NCBI RefSeq assembly: GCF_009828835.1 | Contig: NZ_WTTB01000001.1 | Coordinates: 310,001-374,000 of the forward strand | Direction of reading: 5' to 3' | DNA from: Erysipelothrix urinaevulpis | GTDB lineage: Bacteria > Bacillota_I > Bacilli_A > Erysipelotrichales > Erysipelotrichaceae | Length of the DNA: 64,000 bases | Part shown: one piece after another, positions 41,786-51,574 of the stretch | Position numbering within the stretch: position 1 is the first letter of the stretch | Layout of the letters: every line of letters starts with the position of its first letter | Notes under the pieces: model-generated | What the model saw: only the letters and a program-made list of their open reading frames with translations | Database searches by the model: none | What the model was told of the DNA's origin: nothing | Program-made: the position numbers and the translations under genes

Positions 41786-43108
41786 ATGAAAAAAGATTTA
41801 ATAATTTGTATTGCAGGTGCTGGTAGCACCTATACCCCAGGAATTATTCAAAGCATTTTGAGTCGTTATGAACAATTTCCAGTTAGTGAAATAAGACTCT
41901 ATGATGTATCACAGAAACGAAATCATCGAACCTATGTGATTGTGGAATATTTAACGCAACGATTGAATCAATCGATTAAGCTCGTAGAAACAACAGACCC
42001 AGAACTTGCCTTCACTGGCGTTGATTATATTTTCTCTCAAATTCGTGCGGGTGGCTTAAAAATGAGAGAACTAGATGAAAAGATTCCGCTTAAACATGGA
42101 CTTGTTGGTCAAGAGACATGTGGTGTAGGTGGCTTTGCTTATGGAATGCGCTCAATGGTCCAATTTTTAGATTTAGTCAAGGACTGCATCACCTATGCAC
42201 CCGATGCATGGATTCTAAACTATACCAATCCAGAAACGATTATATCTGAAGCGGTTCGTCGTCAATTTCCATCTGCTAAAATTATCAATGCCTGTGACAT
42301 GGCCATTAGTATTAGTAAAACAATTGCTGATATTTATGACTATGATCATGATGGATGGGTTCCGACTTATTATGGCTTGAACCACTTTGGTTGGTTTACT
42401 GAAGTTTATGATAAAAACTTAGATAAGGATGTTCTTCCTGAGATTATCAAACGAGCTCAACAAGAAGGTGTTTGGCTTAATGAAGGAGATGATAGTTGGA
42501 AAGAAACGTATGTTAATTTGGGTCGAATGATTCAATACTTTCCAGATAGTATTCCCAACAACTATCTTGAGTATTATTTAATGGGCGATGAGAAAGTTGC
42601 GAAAGCAGATCCAAGTTATACTCGTGCTAATTACGTCATGGATAATCGTGATAATTATATGGAAAACTTTTATCAAGCAATTCTTACAGGATCGAAAAAA
42701 GACCTTGAGGCTTATTCAATGGAGAATGAGATTCATGGTCAATATATTACAGATATTGCTATTTCATTGCATTGTGATCTTAACCAACGTTTTAATCTCA
42801 TTGTTCCAAACAAAGGGGCAATTCCAAATTTAAGATCGGATGCAGTCGTGGAGGTTCCTGCTTATGTCAGTGCCAAAGGTGTAGAACCCATTGCCTTACG
42901 ACATGAGATATCGGATTTCCATAAAGGGTTGATGGAAGCACAGGTCGCTTCAGAGAAGTTATGGGTGGATGCATTCTTTGAACAATCGTATCTTAAAGCA
43001 CTTCAAGCCTTTACATTGAATCAAACGGTGCCTTCAATGTTAGTAGCCAAAAAAGTTCTTGATGATCTAATTGAAGCCAATAAAGGCTATTGGCCTGAAC
43101 TGAAATAG
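41786..43108 (+). CDS. GH4 6-phospho-glucosidase, alpha-type motif
   Basis: 440 residues. NAD-binding N-terminus CIAGAGSTYTPGI; Mn/NAD-dependent family 4 chemistry. The motif around Cys170 reads NACDMAIS. Family 4 6-phospho-alpha-glucosidases (GlvA/MalH) carry CDMP, whereas beta-enzymes carry CN[VI]P, so an alpha-linked 6-phospho disaccharide is suggested, with Pro replaced by Ala. YYGLNHFGWF supplies further active-site residues. Strong AAGGAGG. It precedes an EIIC gene by 2 bp, so it hydrolyses the phosphorylated product of that permease. Confidence 0.86.
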   Translation: MKKDLIICIAGAGSTYTPGIIQSILSRYEQFPVSEIRLYDVSQKRNHRTYVIVEYLTQRLNQSIKLVETTDPELAFTGVDYIFSQIRAGGLKMRELDEKIPLKHGLVGQETCGVGGFAYGMRSMVQFLDLVKDCITYAPDAWILNYTNPETIISEAVRRQFPSAKIINACDMAISISKTIADIYDYDHDGWVPTYYGLNHFGWFTEVYDKNLDKDVLPEIIKRAQQEGVWLNEGDDSWKETYVNLGRMIQYFPDSIPNNYLEYYLMGDEKVAKADPSYTRANYVMDNRDNYMENFYQAILTGSKKDLEAYSMENEIHGQYITDIAISLHCDLNQRFNLIVPNKGAIPNLRSDAVVEVPAYVSAKGVEPIALRHEISDFHKGLMEAQVASEKLWVDAFFEQSYLKALQAFTLNQTVPSMLVAKKVLDDLIEANKGYWPELK

Positions 43109-43110
43109 GA

Positions 43111-44301
43111 ATGGACAACCACGCTGAAAAATTGCTGGCACCATTATTAAAAAGTCAAGATAATGCTCTTTTAAAAGCCTATCATAAGGCACATGGAAAC
43201 CTGTTAATGGGATTAATTTTAATCTCATTAACAAGTTTATTATCACAAGGAGTTACGCGAGTTTTGGGACATGATTTTGGAATGATAACACTCCTTCAAA
43301 CTGTCTATCGTTATCTCAATGTGTTTTCGCTAATCTTAATTGCATATGAATTAGCAAGTAACTCTGACACATCTCCTTATAATTCAGTGCTCTTATCACT
43401 ATTTATCTTCTTTTTAAGCATCAATGCATTCGATAAGATCGATGCCCACTCAGTTCTAGCCTATCCATTTGTTATGATAGCACCCTTGATATCTCAAGGA
43501 TTGATTCAAATTATGACGTTTATAATTGAGAAAATCATACCCCAAGAATCAAAAAAGTTCCCAGATAAAATCAATTCACTTATCAGCGAATTGCTGGTGT
43601 TTATGATTAGTGTTTTACTTGTTTTTGTTCTTGTTCATATGTTTAAGTATCAGTTTGTAGTGCTCATATCTTTGTATCTTGATGTTGCTTCATCAATTTT
43701 TAACCTTTACCAAAGTGTGTGGGTGTTTTTAATCATTTTATTTTTACTGAATTACATCTGGTATTATGGCTTTCATGGTGATCAAGTCTTATCACTGTGG
43801 TTTGAACCGATGCTTATTATTTTTACAATGTTTAATCTTGGAAAATGGCTTGGTATTGCAGATCATACCTATATTATTAATGCATCGTTCTATACTGCAT
43901 TTTCAGGTGTAACAGGGTCAGGGATTACGGGAGCAATCATCGTTAACCTCATCTTGAAAAAGAAAAAGAATCTTGCAATTGTGAAAAGTTCAATGGTCCC
44001 AGCCATTTTCAATATCAATGAAACAGTCATGTTTGGGTTACCAATCGTTGGCAATAAAATATTTAAAGTGCCGTTTCTATTGGCGCCAATCATTGCTGGG
44101 AGTCTTGCATACTTGGCAACAAGTGTTGGGTTGATGAAACCTTACATGTTGGCAGTTCCTTGGTATTTTCCGATTGGATTAAAAAGCTTAATTGCTACAG
44201 GGGGCCATTTACCCAGTGTGTTAATTGAGTTGGGAATATTTTTAACAATTGTATTGCTTTACTTACCAGCAACACTAAAATACATAAGAGAGCTTGATTA
44301 A
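43111..44301 (+). CDS. PTS EIIC permease, lactose/cellobiose-like, slightly short
   Basis: 396 residues with about ten helices. The EIIC signature is FNINETVMFGLPIVGN (about residue 300). It diverges from typical CelB at the N-terminal half and has an expanded hydrophilic loop (PQESKKFPDKINS). EIIA and EIIB are absent. Only AGGA abuts the ATG; translation is probably coupled to the GH4 gene. Cargo is a disaccharide hydrolysed by the GH4 enzyme. Confidence 0.82.
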   Translation: MDNHAEKLLAPLLKSQDNALLKAYHKAHGNLLMGLILISLTSLLSQGVTRVLGHDFGMITLLQTVYRYLNVFSLILIAYELASNSDTSPYNSVLLSLFIFFLSINAFDKIDAHSVLAYPFVMIAPLISQGLIQIMTFIIEKIIPQESKKFPDKINSLISELLVFMISVLLVFVLVHMFKYQFVVLISLYLDVASSIFNLYQSVWVFLIILFLLNYIWYYGFHGDQVLSLWFEPMLIIFTMFNLGKWLGIADHTYIINASFYTAFSGVTGSGITGAIIVNLILKKKKNLAIVKSSMVPAIFNINETVMFGLPIVGNKIFKVPFLLAPIIAGSLAYLATSVGLMKPYMLAVPWYFPIGLKSLIATGGHLPSVLIELGIFLTIVLLYLPATLKYIRELD

Positions 44302-44311
44302 GCTCTCTTAT
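44284..44311. terminator. Bidirectional terminator between EIIC and rpiR-type gene
   Basis: ATAAGAGAGCTT / AAGCTCTCTTAT with a GATT loop. It spans both convergent stop codons. Confidence 0.8.
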
Positions 44312-45051
44312 TTCATGGTGTCCAAATATGAGAAGACGAAGTAGTCTAACAATGCTTTCAAGGTTAAGCCAGGCCAAGGCATGATGCTGCTATGAATACT
44401 GTCATCATTAAAATAAAAACGAAGTTTAGATGCTTGTGCAATTTCATTCAAACCATACGAGGTTAAAGAGACGGTGGTAACACCTTTCAGAGTTAAGTAT
44501 TGAATGATTTCAGCAACGGATTCTGTGTTGCCACTCAATGAACAAACAATCACCAAAGAATTAGGTTCAATACTTTTCGCAATCCGGTCAAAATCTTGCA
44601 ACGCTTGAATATTAATGAATGGCTTATGGTAGGTAAACATATCATTGCTAAATAACTCCAGCATTTTTGCTTGTTTCCATCCAGTACCAAAAACATACCG
44701 TTGTGAGGATTCGTTGATCGATAAAAATAGTTCCTCTAAACTTTCGTTGTTGACACCATCAAGTGTAATGCGTATATTTTCGACAATGACTTGTTTGTAA
44801 TCGATCGTGTGTGCAGTTTTTTCTTGTTTATTTTCTTGGATCATGGCGTATTTAAACTCACTATACCCATCAAAACCCAATTTCTTAATCAAACGATAAA
44901 CCGTTGCATTCGAAGAATTACTCATTTTAGAAAACTCTTCGATTGTTAATGAATCAAACTGTAAATCTTCCTTCAACATATAGTTTAGAATATGTAAATC
45001 ACTATCCGTTAAACGATCATAATATGTGTTAACTCTTTCTCTTAAAGTCAT
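44308..45051 (-). CDS. RpiR-family regulator 1 (HTH + SIS domain)
   Basis: 247 residues. The HTH region (SLTIEEFSKMSNSSNATVYR, about 34-53) is followed by a SIS sugar-phosphate-binding domain (VFGTGWKQAKM, IVCSLSGNTESVAEII). The ATG at 45049-45051 is chosen because AAGGTG lies at proper spacing; the longer frame to 45084 lacks one. It is adjacent to the GH4/EIIC and deacetylase genes and probably senses a phosphorylated sugar of that pathway. Confidence 0.84.
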   Translation of the reverse strand: MTLRERVNTYYDRLTDSDLHILNYMLKEDLQFDSLTIEEFSKMSNSSNATVYRLIKKLGFDGYSEFKYAMIQENKQEKTAHTIDYKQVIVENIRITLDGVNNESLEELFLSINESSQRYVFGTGWKQAKMLELFSNDMFTYHKPFINIQALQDFDRIAKSIEPNSLVIVCSLSGNTESVAEIIQYLTLKGVTTVSLTSYGLNEIAQASKLRFYFNDDSIHSSIMPWPGLTLKALLDYFVFSYLDTMK

Positions 45052-45060
45052 TCTGACACC

Positions 45061-45081
45061 TTTTTTCACAAAGTGAAAAAA
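45061..45081. promoter_or_regulatory. Palindrome at the rpiR-type promoter
   Basis: TTTTTTCAC AAA GTGAAAAAA is a perfect inverted repeat (9-bp arms) 9 bp upstream of the regulator start. It is a candidate autoregulatory operator or an mRNA leader hairpin. Confidence 0.45.
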
Positions 45082-45209
45082 CACCCTTTCTTTTGATAAT
45101 TATACATCATTTCCAATAACTATGGTCGACAAATTGTCTCTATGGTATAAGTAAAGTGTAGGAAATAAAATAAATTGTTCATGAGAAAAACAATAAAAGG
45201 AGTAATACT

Positions 45210-45968
45210 ATGGGAAAAGTAATCATTAATGCCGATGATTTCGGCTACAGTCGTGGAATAAATTATGCAATAGTTGATAGTCATCAACTCGGAATTTTAA
45301 CGTCAACAACAATCATGGCAGGAATGCCAGGATTTGAACATGCTGTCGAACTGTCAAAGAGCAATCCTAACTTAGGAATTGGCGTACACTTAACATTGAC
45401 TTGCGGCTATCCATTATTGAAAGATCACAAAACAATTATTGACTCATCAGGAAGATTTAAAAATTTAGCTTTTTTCACTCAAGAGAATGATTATGATCTT
45501 GAAGAAGTGTATAGAGAATGGGAAGCACAGATTGAGAAAGTCATCGCTGCAGGAATTAATCCTAGTCACCTGGATTCGCACCACCACACACACAGCTTTC
45601 CAAAACAACAAGCTATTGTTGTAAAGTTAGCAAGAAAATATAATCTTCCAGTCAGAAATAATTTGTCATTACCATCAGATATCGTGAAAGTAAATCGATT
45701 TGAACCACTATTTGATACTGTTGCGATTGAAAGTGAAGAGGCTCTAAAAGTATATTTAGCAAATGTTAAAAACGATATTGAACATTGGGGAACTGTCGAA
45801 ATTATGGTTCATCCAGGATACCTTGATTCTGATGTTTATCAAGGATCCAGTTTAACCGAAAATCGAAGTTATGTTGCTGATTTTCTGATGAATTCAACGT
45901 TTGCTAAAACGCTAAAAAAGAGCAAGGTTATCAAGCTGATTTCTTATCATGAGTTATCGGATCGATAA
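45210..45968 (+). CDS. ChbG/HpnK (YdjC) family carbohydrate deacetylase
   Basis: 252 residues. Metal ligands are visible in INADDFGYSRGIN (Asp-Asp) and LDSHHHTHSFP (His pair), with GVHLTLTCG following the fold. The family removes N-acetyl groups from amino-sugar oligosaccharides or their phosphates. Placed beside a GH4 glycosidase and EIIC, it suggests an N-acetylated disaccharide substrate. AAAGGAG lies before the ATG. Confidence 0.86.
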   Translation: MGKVIINADDFGYSRGINYAIVDSHQLGILTSTTIMAGMPGFEHAVELSKSNPNLGIGVHLTLTCGYPLLKDHKTIIDSSGRFKNLAFFTQENDYDLEEVYREWEAQIEKVIAAGINPSHLDSHHHTHSFPKQQAIVVKLARKYNLPVRNNLSLPSDIVKVNRFEPLFDTVAIESEEALKVYLANVKNDIEHWGTVEIMVHPGYLDSDVYQGSSLTENRSYVADFLMNSTFAKTLKKSKVIKLISYHELSDR

Positions 45969-46020: not shown

Positions 46021-46026
46021 TATAAT
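46021..46026 (+). promoter_or_regulatory. -10 element for the ABC-F leader transcript
   Basis: A perfect TATAAT directly after GGTG. No clear -35 was found at 17 bp. Transcription would start near 46033, giving a leader of about 200 nt. Confidence 0.5.
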
Positions 46027-46050
46027 TAAAAATAGAGGTGATTAGCTGAA

Positions 46051-46071
46051 ATGAAATTACAATCTATATAG
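46051..46071 (+). CDS. Leader peptide MKLQSI before the ABC-F gene
   Basis: GAGGTG ends 10 bp before an ATG that encodes MKLQSI and stops at TAG. It lies between the promoter and an intrinsic terminator, the usual position of the upstream ORF in antibiotic-sensing attenuators of ABC-F resistance genes. The coding inference rests on position and ribosome binding site only. Confidence 0.5.
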   Translation: MKLQSI

Positions 46072-46156
46072 CAAGTAAAGACCGTAAATCAAATCATAAT
46101 GTATAATTTGTATTTTTAGGTCGCCGTATAGATAAAATGATCAGCCAAATCAAGAC

Positions 46157-46192
46157 AAAGAGTTTGCATCATTTTTGCAAACTTTTTATTTT
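46157..46192 (+). terminator. Attenuator-like terminator in the ABC-F leader
   Basis: AGTTTGCA / TGCAAACT (extended by A-T and G-T pairs) followed by TTTTTATTTT, all upstream of the ABC-F start. Flanking segments AGGTCGC (46118-46124) and GCGACCT (46217-46223) are complementary and would enclose it, the second one lying just before the AGGAGG site. I could not identify a clear antiterminator pairing. Confidence 0.65.
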
Positions 46193-46235
46193 ACCAAACA
46201 TCACTATCTGTATTAAGCGACCTCTAGGAGGAAAA

Positions 46236-47798
46236 ATGTTTAATATAAAGAATTTAAATATAAGTCGGAACAATCAATCACTTTCATTAGTGAAAAACTT
46301 CAGTTTTACCTTTGCTGATCAAGACAAAGTCGCTCTTGTTGGCGAGGAAGGGACAGGAAAGTCTAGTTTAATTAAAGCGATGGTTTTTAAAGATAGTTTA
46401 GACTATGCAAGTGTAAAATTTGACGAAATGTCAGATTCTTTAGTTGTTGGATACGTCCCACAATTATTGAGCTATCAAGGAAGTGTAGATGACATGTTTT
46501 ATAAGAATGTTGACTGGGAATTTTTTGATTATGCACTGTTTAATGAATTACTCAACGACTTTGGACTTGTTGATTTAGATATTGACAAGCGACCTTATGA
46601 AGTCTTGTCAGGTGGAGAGAAAGTCAAGTTAAAAATCATTCAAGAACTCATGAAACAACCTGATATTTTACTTTTGGATGAACCAACCAATGATTTAGAT
46701 ATGAAAAGTATTGAAGCACTGGAAAAACATTTAAAAGCAGTAAATTATCCAGTTGTCATCTCATCTCATGATCGAAGTTTTATTGAAAATGTTGCGAATA
46801 CGATCATTCATTTTGAACAAGTGAAACGACGAACAGAAAGTTATCAGACAATTTATCGAATGACTTACTCGGATTTCATTGAAGAACGACACTATCGAAT
46901 GACTAAGCAAGCCAGTCAACATACAAAAGAAACTGAAGAATTTGATAAAGCTATGGAACGATTTGAATCAATTCATGATCGAGTCCATCATAGTTTAAAA
47001 ACGGCAACGCGACAAGATCCCCAAGCAGCAAAAAATCTTAAAGATAAAATGAGAACTGTAAAATCAATGGAAAAACGATTACAACGTCAACAAGATACAA
47101 TTACAAGCCGACCAGAGTTTGATAAGCCAATCGATTTCCAATTAAACAATAAAGGATCGATTCACACCACAAGAAAAGTGTTAGATATTTCCATAAAACC
47201 GTTAAAAATAAAGGACAAGGTATTGAGTAAAGGCGTTGAATTACAGCTTTATGGTCCTGAAAAAATTGCCATTATTGGTGAAAATGGAATTGATAAAAGC
47301 ACATTACTTTATGCAATCAAGGAGTCTTTAGAAAGTAGCGGGTTGAACGTTGCATGGATGCCTCAAAGTTATTCAGAGGTCATGGATGTAAAGAAAAATT
47401 CAATTGAACAACTTGCTGATATAAAAGATAAAGAAGCAGTAACGAAGGCAAGAACTTTTTTGGGGAGTTTGAATTTTACAGCGGAGGAAATGCTTGTTCC
47501 TTTTTCTGAACTTTCTGGGGGACAAAAAGCAAAGTTATACTTTGGTAAGATGGCTTTAGATTCATCTGATGTATTGTTACTTGATGAACCCAGTCGTAAT
47601 ATATCTCCGCTTTCACTCGAAAGCCTTGAAACAGCATTGAAAAATTATACAGGAGCTGTGATTATGGTCAGCCATGATCGACAACTCATCGCCCATGTTG
47701 CCGATAAAATATACGAACTTGATGTTGAAGGATTACATTTAAAGGAGACGTTAAATGACAATGAAAAAAAATCTACATTTATACTCACAGATAATTAA
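46236..47798 (+). CDS. ABC-F subfamily ribosome-protection-like ATPase, altered second Walker A
   Basis: 520 residues with two ABC domains and no membrane helices. NBD1: GEEGTGKSS (about 34-42), LSGGEKVK, LLLDEPTNDLD. An interdomain arginine/glutamine-rich linker follows (about 200-310). NBD2: GENGIDKST (about 348-356), LSGGQKAK, LLLDEPSRNISPLS. In the second P-loop an Asp (GAT) replaces the conserved Gly before Lys. The DEPSRNISPLS motif resembles Lsa/Vga/Sal-type antibiotic-resistance ABC-F proteins. The ATG at 46236 has AGGAGG; it overlaps the next gene by 44 bp. Confidence 0.85.
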   Translation: MFNIKNLNISRNNQSLSLVKNFSFTFADQDKVALVGEEGTGKSSLIKAMVFKDSLDYASVKFDEMSDSLVVGYVPQLLSYQGSVDDMFYKNVDWEFFDYALFNELLNDFGLVDLDIDKRPYEVLSGGEKVKLKIIQELMKQPDILLLDEPTNDLDMKSIEALEKHLKAVNYPVVISSHDRSFIENVANTIIHFEQVKRRTESYQTIYRMTYSDFIEERHYRMTKQASQHTKETEEFDKAMERFESIHDRVHHSLKTATRQDPQAAKNLKDKMRTVKSMEKRLQRQQDTITSRPEFDKPIDFQLNNKGSIHTTRKVLDISIKPLKIKDKVLSKGVELQLYGPEKIAIIGENGIDKSTLLYAIKESLESSGLNVAWMPQSYSEVMDVKKNSIEQLADIKDKEAVTKARTFLGSLNFTAEEMLVPFSELSGGQKAKLYFGKMALDSSDVLLLDEPSRNISPLSLESLETALKNYTGAVIMVSHDRQLIAHVADKIYELDVEGLHLKETLNDNEKKSTFILTDN

Positions 47799-48270
47799 TA
47801 CGGATGTTGCTGTGTTGTATGCATTGAGCGATAACTCACATTTATATTTACTTTGTTTTATAGACGAAAAAGAGAAAAAACTGAAGACACTAAGACAGTA
47901 TTTTACTGTGGAGATAAGTGAACAACCCACCAGCATTCATCGAAACCTTGAAAAACAAATGAATGAATATTTCTTGGGAAATAGAGTTGAGTTTGATGTT
48001 CCGCTTAAATTATGGGGAACTGATTTTCAAAAAAAAGTGTGGAAGCAACTGATCAACATCCCCTATGGTACAACCATTAGTTATGAAGCTTTAGCTCATC
48101 AGATTGGTCATGACAAAGCCTACAGAGCAGTGGGAAGTGCAAATGGTAAGAACAATCATGTTATTTTAATTCCATGTCACAGAGTTATTGCAAAGGGTGG
48201 AAAATTAGGTGGTTATACTGGAGGGCTCCATATCAAGGAAAGATTGTTAGCCGTTGAAAATATTGAATAA
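47755..48270 (+). CDS. ogt: Methylated-DNA-[protein]-cysteine S-methyltransferase
   Basis: 171 residues. The acceptor-Cys motif IPCHRVIAKGGKLGGYTGG (Cys about 141) and the HTH-like GTDFQKKVWKQLINIPYGTT are diagnostic of O6-alkylguanine-DNA alkyltransferase, a suicidal DNA repair protein. AAGGAG is 7 bp before the ATG at 47755, inside the ABC-F reading frame. The long overlap suggests translational coupling. Confidence 0.92.
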   Translation: MTMKKNLHLYSQIINTDVAVLYALSDNSHLYLLCFIDEKEKKLKTLRQYFTVEISEQPTSIHRNLEKQMNEYFLGNRVEFDVPLKLWGTDFQKKVWKQLINIPYGTTISYEALAHQIGHDKAYRAVGSANGKNNHVILIPCHRVIAKGGKLGGYTGGLHIKERLLAVENIE

Positions 48271-49447: not shown

Positions 49448-50734
49448 ATGGATCGTTTTATTCAATTTATTGAAGAAAAGATGGTACCAAAGGTTGCGAA
49501 AGTAACAAATACACGTTATTTTAATGCCTTGAAATCAGGGTTTTTGGTTATCATGCCACTGACAATCATTGGTTCAATATTTTTATTAATCACTGATTTT
49601 CCATTGCCGGGTTATGCAGAATTTATGGCTGGTATATTTGGAGCGGATTGGACAAGTTATTTAGACTCTGCTTACAGAGCAACATTCAATTTAATGGGCT
49701 TTTTGTTAGCAGGAACAATTGCTTATCGTCTTGCAGAAGATTATAATATGGATGCCTTATCAACAATGATTTTATCATTAGTTGCTTATGTTGTTGTTTT
49801 ACCTAAATCTGTAATCACAGAATCAGGAGAAGTTGTTGGTAGAGTTCTATCATTTACTTGGCTTGGTACACAAGGGGTTATTACAGCTTTGGTCATGGCG
49901 TTTTTAACAGTAGAAATTGTACGCTTTTTTGTTGAGAGAGACCTGACAATTAAAATGCCTGATTCAGTGCCTACCATGGTATCTCAATCATTCAGTGCTT
50001 TAATACCAGGGTTTGCAGTTGTTATGGTTAGTTTACTGCTTGCTGGGTTATCAAGAGCAGTTGCTGGTTCATTTCCAGAACTAATTTATCAAATCATTCA
50101 AATTCCTTTAGAAGGTCTTACGTCATCTTTAGGTGCAATCGTGGTTGTCGCCGGATTAAATGGTTTCTTATGGTGGTTTGGTATTCATCCAACAGTTGTT
50201 AATTCAGTTGTAAACCCGTTACTAAACGCAAACTCAGTTAAAAATTTAGAATTATTTAAAGCAAATAATCTAACATTAGCTACAGGTAACGTTGGAACAA
50301 TCCAAATGATTGATCAATTTGCAACAATTGGTGGAGCAGGTCTTACACTTGGTTTAGTGATAGCTATGTTATTAGTAGCACGCTCATCACGTTTGAAAGC
50401 AATGTCAAAATTAATTGGTGTTCCATCACTCTTTAACATTAATGAACCAATAATCTTTGGTTTACCAGTTGTTTTTAACCCATTGATGTTAATCCCTATT
50501 ACAGTTGCACCAATGGTCTCAGTTTTAATTGCATATTTCGCAATGAAAATAAACTTTATGCCAATGTTCAATGGTGTAGTTGCACCTTGGCCAACACCAC
50601 CAATCTTCTCAGGATTTTTAGTAGCTGGGTGGCAAGGGGCTGTCGTACAAATTATCTGTATCATTGCAGCCACAATAATATATTATCCATTCGTCAAGGC
50701 ATTGGATAATCAATATTTAAAAGAAGAAGCATAA
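49448..50734 (+). CDS. PTS EIIC permease, lactose/cellobiose family
   Basis: 428 residues with the family layout (N-terminal amphipathic segment, about ten helices) and FNINEPIIFGLPVVFNP near residue 325. It resembles the EIIC at 488-1783 in length and N-terminal design. TAGGAGG precedes the ATG. No EIIA/EIIB adjoin. Its partners are a regulator, a C-S lyase and RidA, so the cargo is uncertain. Confidence 0.88.
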   Translation: MDRFIQFIEEKMVPKVAKVTNTRYFNALKSGFLVIMPLTIIGSIFLLITDFPLPGYAEFMAGIFGADWTSYLDSAYRATFNLMGFLLAGTIAYRLAEDYNMDALSTMILSLVAYVVVLPKSVITESGEVVGRVLSFTWLGTQGVITALVMAFLTVEIVRFFVERDLTIKMPDSVPTMVSQSFSALIPGFAVVMVSLLLAGLSRAVAGSFPELIYQIIQIPLEGLTSSLGAIVVVAGLNGFLWWFGIHPTVVNSVVNPLLNANSVKNLELFKANNLTLATGNVGTIQMIDQFATIGGAGLTLGLVIAMLLVARSSRLKAMSKLIGVPSLFNINEPIIFGLPVVFNPLMLIPITVAPMVSVLIAYFAMKINFMPMFNGVVAPWPTPPIFSGFLVAGWQGAVVQIICIIAATIIYYPFVKALDNQYLKEEA

Positions 50735-50782
50735 ATAAATAGATAAAATAAGGTATAATTCAAGAGATAAGGGAGGTTAAAA

Positions 50783-51574
50783 ATGGTACTGAGTAAACAA
50801 ATTTCACTCCATGCTTATACACTCACTGAGATGGAAAAGCAACTTCTTCGAAATCTCTTGGATTATTCTGATGAGTTTGAATATAAAAATTTTACAATCG
50901 AATTTATTTCTGAACAATTTAATGTCTCAAAAACAAGTGTTCATCGTTTTACACAAAAATTAGGATATGAGAGTTTCGTTTATTTTAAAGATGACTATTT
51001 TAACCGGGATGTCATGTCGAAAACAAGTCAAGAAGAACCAAATCAATATGTTGATATGTTGAAACATACCTATGAATTAGTCAATGATTCTATTTCAGAA
51101 GATCTATTAATTGCAATGATCCAGGCAAAAAGAATTGTGATCTATGGTATGGGTATGAGTAATTTTCTTGGCAAAATGTTCCAAATTAAGTTGCAATTGT
51201 TTGGAAAAACAGTGGAACAATTTGATGATTCACGCTACATGAGACTGTCAGCGAAAAGTTTAAATTCAAAAGAGGATTTGGTGTTTGTTTTATCAAGAAG
51301 TGGTAAGCCACCTGAAATTGTTGAAGCAATTATCGAAGCAAATTTTAGGAAAGTAAAGATTGTATTAATAACAGAAGAACCTAAGTCTCCATTGGGGGGC
51401 TTATCGGATTTTATCATTCAAACTTCATTCAGTAAAGATTCTGACCAGGCAATTGATACAAGAATTAATGCTCATGTAGCATTAGATGTCTTAATGAATC
51501 GCTTTATTGAAAGAAAAGAGAAAGAAGTTTTAGAGAATGACACAAAAAGTATCGACCCTCAACAGGGAGAATAA
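50783..51574 (+). CDS. RpiR-family regulator 2
   Basis: 263 residues. The N-terminal HTH (FISEQFNVSKTSVHRFTQKL, about 43-62) is followed by a SIS domain (VIYGMGMSNFLGKMF, VFVLSRSGKPPEIVEAI). It is encoded inside the EIIC-malY operon and likely senses the phosphorylated PTS product. GGGAGG is well placed before the ATG. Confidence 0.85.
   Translation: MVLSKQISLHAYTLTEMEKQLLRNLLDYSDEFEYKNFTIEFISEQFNVSKTSVHRFTQKLGYESFVYFKDDYFNRDVMSKTSQEEPNQYVDMLKHTYELVNDSISEDLLIAMIQAKRIVIYGMGMSNFLGKMFQIKLQLFGKTVEQFDDSRYMRLSAKSLNSKEDLVFVLSRSGKPPEIVEAIIEANFRKVKIVLITEEPKSPLGGLSDFIIQTSFSKDSDQAIDTRINAHVALDVLMNRFIERKEKEVLENDTKSIDPQQGE

Follow-up and report, generated by a model that had tools for sequence, protein, structure and literature searches.

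Organization of the ABC-F Locus

In the 64-kb stretch of Erysipelothrix urinaevulpis DNA that was analyzed (hereafter, the window), a gene for an ABC-F ATPase is preceded by a leader of 200 nt, which carries a short upstream open reading frame (uORF) with its own Shine–Dalgarno (SD) sequence, a terminator-like hairpin, two long pairings (P1 and P2), and a small hairpin at the SD sequence of the gene (P3) (table 1). The first-pass annotation of this DNA had listed a promoter box, a six-codon uORF with its own SD sequence, a terminator-like hairpin, complementary arms, and the gene, and the positions of all of these elements were confirmed. The promoter stood only in part: the TATAAT box is present, but it lacks a good −35 partner, and a promoter scan returned 14 calls against 12.2 in shuffled sequences, which is not above chance. 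The leader folded with a z score of −2.9, an Rfam search of the 64-kb window gave no match, and 2.1% of dinucleotide shuffles of the window leader produced by chance a short uORF with an SD sequence (at least five matches). The frame of the ABC-F gene is also open back to an ATG at 46137 and runs through the terminator hairpin with no stop (46137–46235); because the relatives start at 46236, this upstream ATG is probably a chance occurrence.

The ogt-type gene downstream starts inside the ABC-F gene, so that the two may be induced together, and it is a possible operon partner. The ABC-F gene is flanked by two sugar-uptake clusters (41786–45968 and 49448–51574) with PTS IIC and RpiR-type regulators, one of which also has a YdjC-type deacetylase.

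Table 1. Features of the ABC-F locus, with coordinates in the window
Feature	Coordinates	Strand	Basis or remark
−10 box TATAAT	46021..46026	+	sequence; no convincing −35
SD of uORF, GAGGTGA	46035..46041	+	sequence
uORF, ATG AAA TTA CAA TCT ATA TAG (MKLQSI, six codons)	46051..46071	+	sequence and relatives
P1 hairpin, 46062–46069/46126–46133, 46071–46072/46123–46124, 46080–46083/46119–46122	46062..46133	+	folding; conserved in G011
P2 long-range helix, 20 bp, 46118–46124 (AGGTCGC)/46217–46223 (GCGACCT), 46126–46134/46205–46213, 46138–46141/46200–46203	46118..46223	+	folding; G011 counterpart
Intrinsic-terminator-like hairpin AGTTTGCA/TGCAAACT (46161–46183), then TTTTATTTT	46161..46192	+	folding, scoring
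P3 weak anti-SD hairpin CCUC-UAG-GAGG, −3.5 kcal/mol	46221..46231	+	folding
SD of ABC-F gene, AGGAGG	46226..46231	+	sequence
ABC-F ATPase, 520 aa, intact	46236..47798	+	Pfam, model, alignment
ogt-type methylated-DNA-protein cysteine methyltransferase	47755..48270	+	start overlaps ABC-F end by 44 nt

Two Mutually Exclusive Helices in the Leader

Folding of the leader placed one segment in two alternative helices. The 5′ arm of P1 overlaps the uORF from codon 4 to the stop, and within P1 the shared segment pairs with the end of the uORF as well as with a GACC; the same segment forms the 5′ arm of P2, the loop of which encloses the terminator-like hairpin, and P1 and P2 cannot coexist. The arms AGGTCGC and GCGACCT, which had been flagged as part of an attenuator-type leader, are indeed complementary, but they make up the end of the P2 helix and not an antiterminator. 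Pairing of the shared segment with the uORF end was computed at −14.3 kcal/mol, and its pairing with the stretch preceding the gene SD sequence at −20.3 kcal/mol; this double pairing (shuffle mean, −6.0) was matched by none of 500 shuffles of the window leader.

A gene with a leader of this type was patchy in the genus (2 of 13 species), and the only related leader outside the window was found in one other genome, that of another species of Erysipelothrix (G011, locus L022). This leader has diverged, and its pre-gene stretch aligns poorly with that of the window. It keeps a uORF (MNI*), P1 (UCUAUGUGG/CCAUAUGGA), P2 (GGUCGCCC/GGGUGACC), and a stronger SD hairpin (ACCCU/AGGGU, −8.0 kcal/mol), the pairs being retained despite base changes, and its double pairing (−16.0 and −19.1 kcal/mol) was likewise reached in 0 of 500 shuffles. 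The conservation of P1 and P2, as judged from two sequences and thus short of a full covariation test, supports a switch. Taken alone, the promoter and terminator calls do not exceed chance, as would be seen if the pairings were fortuitous and the gene constitutive; such a reading is nevertheless highly improbable, given that the switch was unmatched by shuffles in each of two diverged leaders and that uORFs are enriched across the family (see below).

The computed balance between the two helices depended on the transcript and on the ribosome. P1 had a probability of 0.99 in the transcript ending at the U-tract, and in the full, unblocked leader P1 (0.64) and P2 (0.31) were near in energy. When a ribosome footprint was blocked on the uORF start, P1 fell from 0.64 to 0 and P2 rose from 0.31 to 0.95. 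For the G011 leader, later modeled stalls lowered P3 from 0.94 to 0.28–0.64 and raised P2 from 0.00 to 0.70–0.90.

The effect on the SD sequence of the gene was modest. With the footprint blocked on the uORF start, computed SD openness rose from 0.51 to 0.65. When the 3′ end was made shorter, the rise was from 0.35 to 0.50, and a stall at codon 5 or later then moved it only from 0.35 to 0.38. Tested directly and on its own, P3 gave p 0.29 in the window, which is within chance, and p 0.04 in G011, and in a family-wide test for anti-SD pairing 17–48 nt upstream the window was not significant because its anti-SD sequence sits closer to the SD sequence. Since P2 encloses the terminator and competes with both the uORF hairpin and the anti-SD sequence, the computed switch is a translational one.

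The Terminator and the Level of Control

The intrinsic terminator of the first-pass annotation was retained with reservation: the hairpin and the following TTTTATTTT are present, but the score is borderline (−8.4 kcal/mol for the hairpin, d = −3.3 by the formula used here), and a generic terminator scan reported the 46161–46192 hairpin on the opposite strand only. The hairpin had a probability of at least 0.99 even with a stalled ribosome and was folded in all states. No stall-dependent antiterminator was found when full and nascent window transcripts were folded with blocked footprints, a procedure that can miss one, and in the vga(A) leader, which served as the control for nascent-transcript folding, a stall-dependent antiterminator was recovered. 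These results indicated that the computed switch acts on translation, and regulated termination is possible but, as the folding gave no stall-dependent antiterminator, unproven.

The leader might still act mainly on transcription, with stalling on the uORF preventing termination through an antiterminator or, for example, RNA polymerase pausing, and with P2 in a secondary role. A hairpin with a U-rich tail lies between the uORF and the gene in the window and in G011 alike, strong terminators occupy this position in several relatives from Lachnospiraceae and Erysipelotrichaceae (e.g., L062, L072, L039, and L002), and the vmlR and cplR leaders both terminate (PMC9226507, PMC10201436). However, the computations yielded no such antiterminator, P2 can form only once the terminator has been passed, and in G011 it is the unblocked P1 that excludes the terminator, the opposite of the expected direction. 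We regard control that is mainly transcriptional as a tentative possibility.

The published systems combine the two levels. The vmlR leader of Bacillus subtilis contains a uORF hairpin, a terminator, a hairpin at the SD sequence, and an alternative pairing by which the SD sequence is freed, and it works in both a transcriptional and a translational layer (PMC9226507); in cplR, transcriptional and translational attenuation act together, and the gene stays regulated under translational control alone (PMC10201436). The window leader resembles vmlR (ARE2) in its short uORF in a 5′ hairpin, its terminator-like hairpin, its weak SD hairpin, and an alternative pairing predicted to free the SD sequence, and its protein resembles VmlR in fold; however, its uORF encodes MKLQSI instead of MIN, and no antiterminator was computed. 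With cplR of Clostridioides difficile (ARE1) it shares a uORF of few codons, whereas the cplR terminator stem covers the SD sequence and the terminator and anti-SD sequence of the window are separate. Listeria Lmo0919/VgaL and staphylococcal Vga(A) are also leader-controlled ABC-F proteins of close fold; they differ in the interdomain linker tip of VgaL, which is longer (see below), and in the computed stall-dependent antiterminator of vga(A).

The ABC-F Protein Belongs to a Separate Clade

Pfam ABC_tran matches the protein twice, and the two ABC domains lie in a single chain with a long helical linker between them (helices at residues 211–256 and 262–288 in the AlphaFold model, pLDDT 87.9). 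This layout, together with best matches to ABC-F proteins, places it in the ABC-F family. The best fold matches were VmlR2 (8buu; Z 36.5), VgaL (35.9), and VgaA (34.9), with VmlR at 33.5. VmlR2, although the closest in fold, shares 26% identity with the protein. By profile alignment, the linker tip is shorter than those of VmlR, VgaL, and VmlR2 by ~3, ~9, and ~11 residues, respectively, and the linker is ~18 residues longer than that of YheS.

The protein lies outside the named resistance families. It missed the curated NCBIfam cut-offs for Vga (231 of 725 bits), Msr (230 of 680), CplR (217 of 780), Sal (187 of 725), OptrA (165 of 1450), and Lsa (143 of 750), and it scored below the cut-off of the general ribosomal-protection-like model (304 of 380 bits). 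In a tree without Sal and CplR, 29 relatives formed one clade (support 100/100) on a long branch of 1.46. Vga(A), Msr(E), Lsa(E), OptrA, and PoxtA fell outside this clade, as did two further ABC-F proteins of the same genome, and the window protein grouped with L002 (97/88). Because long branches were flagged in this tree (Lsa(E), PoxtA, and one other ABC-F protein of the genome), only the separation of the clade was used.

The NBD2 motif DEPSRNISPLS had been read as fitting the lincosamide/streptogramin/pleuromutilin group. This reading was abandoned. The strict pattern DEP[T/S]RNxSP occurs in 26 of the 29 clade members, whereas DEPSRNISPLS was absent from Vga(A), VgaL/Lmo0919, VmlR (DQPTNHLD at this place), VmlR2, Lsa(E), Msr(E), OptrA, and PoxtA, the named resistance proteins examined. 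The motif thus marks a separate Bacillota clade and is not supported as a drug-class signature, and a resistance spectrum cannot be read from the sequence. A survey of 2019 described two subfamilies restricted to Firmicutes, FAF1 and FAF2, as predicted resistance ABC-F proteins (PMC6723617). A literature search for "ribosomal protection-like ABC-F" found no paper.

The Walker A motif of NBD1 (GEEGTGKS) is intact. In P-loop ATPases the Walker A glycine is almost always kept, and the aligned relatives have GxGK[ST] with glycine at this position; in NBD2 of the window protein, however, the motif reads GENGIDKS (47277–47300, residues 348–355), with Asp in place of Gly, so that the protein departs from the usual, though not strictly defining, ABC-F trait of an intact Walker A in both domains. 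The substitution may impair one ATP site, and with it the protein, and ATP binding at NBD2 may be lost; seen in one genome, the Asp may also reflect an error in the sequence or a change peculiar to the strain.

The altered motif and the position outside the named resistance families would suit a regulated gene whose product serves mainly as a translation factor in housekeeping or stress, or as a modulator in which one of the ATP sites is dead, and has no part in resistance. We consider this unlikely, since the best fold matches are resistance ABC-F proteins, the linker is longer than that of Escherichia coli YheS and near the length of that of VmlR, the gene has a patchy distribution across the genus, and the two other ABC-F proteins of the genome, both full-length, can do the housekeeping. 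A role in resistance is plausible.

uORFs Are Common Upstream of Relatives

Searches of the genus, the family, the order, and named genomes returned many relatives at ~30–44% identity; the viral contigs searched contained no relative. Among the 63 relatives with a readable upstream region, 44 had a short uORF with an SD sequence within 260 nt of the gene, against 4.3 expected from shuffles. Common peptides were MKL, MKN, MKK, MYK..., MYR, and MRK, and MNI* occurred too. The window uORF begins with MKL, and seven relatives have MKL*; the published consensus for VmlR2, MK[L/Q], resembles it, and published uORFs of this kind also include MIN for VmlR and MR[I/M] for CplR (PMC10201436). These data extend uORF-controlled ABC-F genes to a clade that is present in numerous genomes of Erysipelotrichaceae and Lachnospiraceae and is missed by the curated resistance models.

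A Model for Induction

The claim that the locus has the uORF-attenuator architecture of inducible ABC-F genes was strongly supported, and the leader fits those published for vmlR and cplR (PMC9226507, PMC10201436). Because the leader has two mutually exclusive folds and a tiny uORF, drug-stalled ribosomes probably switch the gene on. We proposed, with fair confidence, that a uORF attenuator makes this ABC-F gene inducible by antibiotics, with translational control as the best-supported step; the stalling itself, the identity of the inducing drug, the extent of termination, and a function in resistance are what we infer. In the absence of drug, the six codons would be translated, the ribosomes would leave, and P1 would fold and trap the segment AGGUCGCCGUAUAGAU; many transcripts would end at the hairpin, and in those that read through, the anti-SD sequence CCUC could cover the gene SD sequence. 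A drug acting at the peptidyl-transferase center would stall a ribosome over the first codons of the uORF, and the ribosome would mask the 5′ arm of P1 with its footprint. The segment thus released would then pair with 46200–46223 as P2 and remove the anti-SD sequence, translation of the ABC-F gene would start, and its product would release drug-stalled ribosomes.

This type of control is already known, and it is the branch of the protein that is poorly studied and uncharacterized. A broader proposal would be that the large Bacillota clade with DEP[T/S]RNxSPLS, mostly controlled by short uORFs, consists of uncharacterized inducible ribosome-protection factors. The window copy would then have a translation-only switch, in which a helix closes around a terminator that is not itself regulated, and would work with a degenerate second ATP site; this full combination is speculative and rather improbable. 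If the clade does comprise resistance factors, intrinsic resistance in Erysipelotrichaceae and Lachnospiraceae would be under-annotated, and the uORF would be a simple handle for finding further members.

Other ABC-F Copies in the Genus

Paralogous ABC-F genes, mostly from other species of the genus (L009, L010, L012, L013, and L016–L021), have a uORF of 3 to 9 codons within the upstream 60 nt. The uORF itself, through its start region and its codons, pairs with the SD sequence and the start of the ABC-F gene to form a single long hairpin, which in L017 includes 11 bp of ungapped pairing over the SD sequence; in 8 of these loci the SD pairing exceeded that of shuffles (p ≤ 0.05). By prediction, these hairpins are compact translational attenuators without a terminator. 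Three congeners carry two related ABC-F copies 8–10 kb apart (G002:C1:678674 and 687145; G009:C1:1290084 and 1298543; G006:C1:884532 and 894284).
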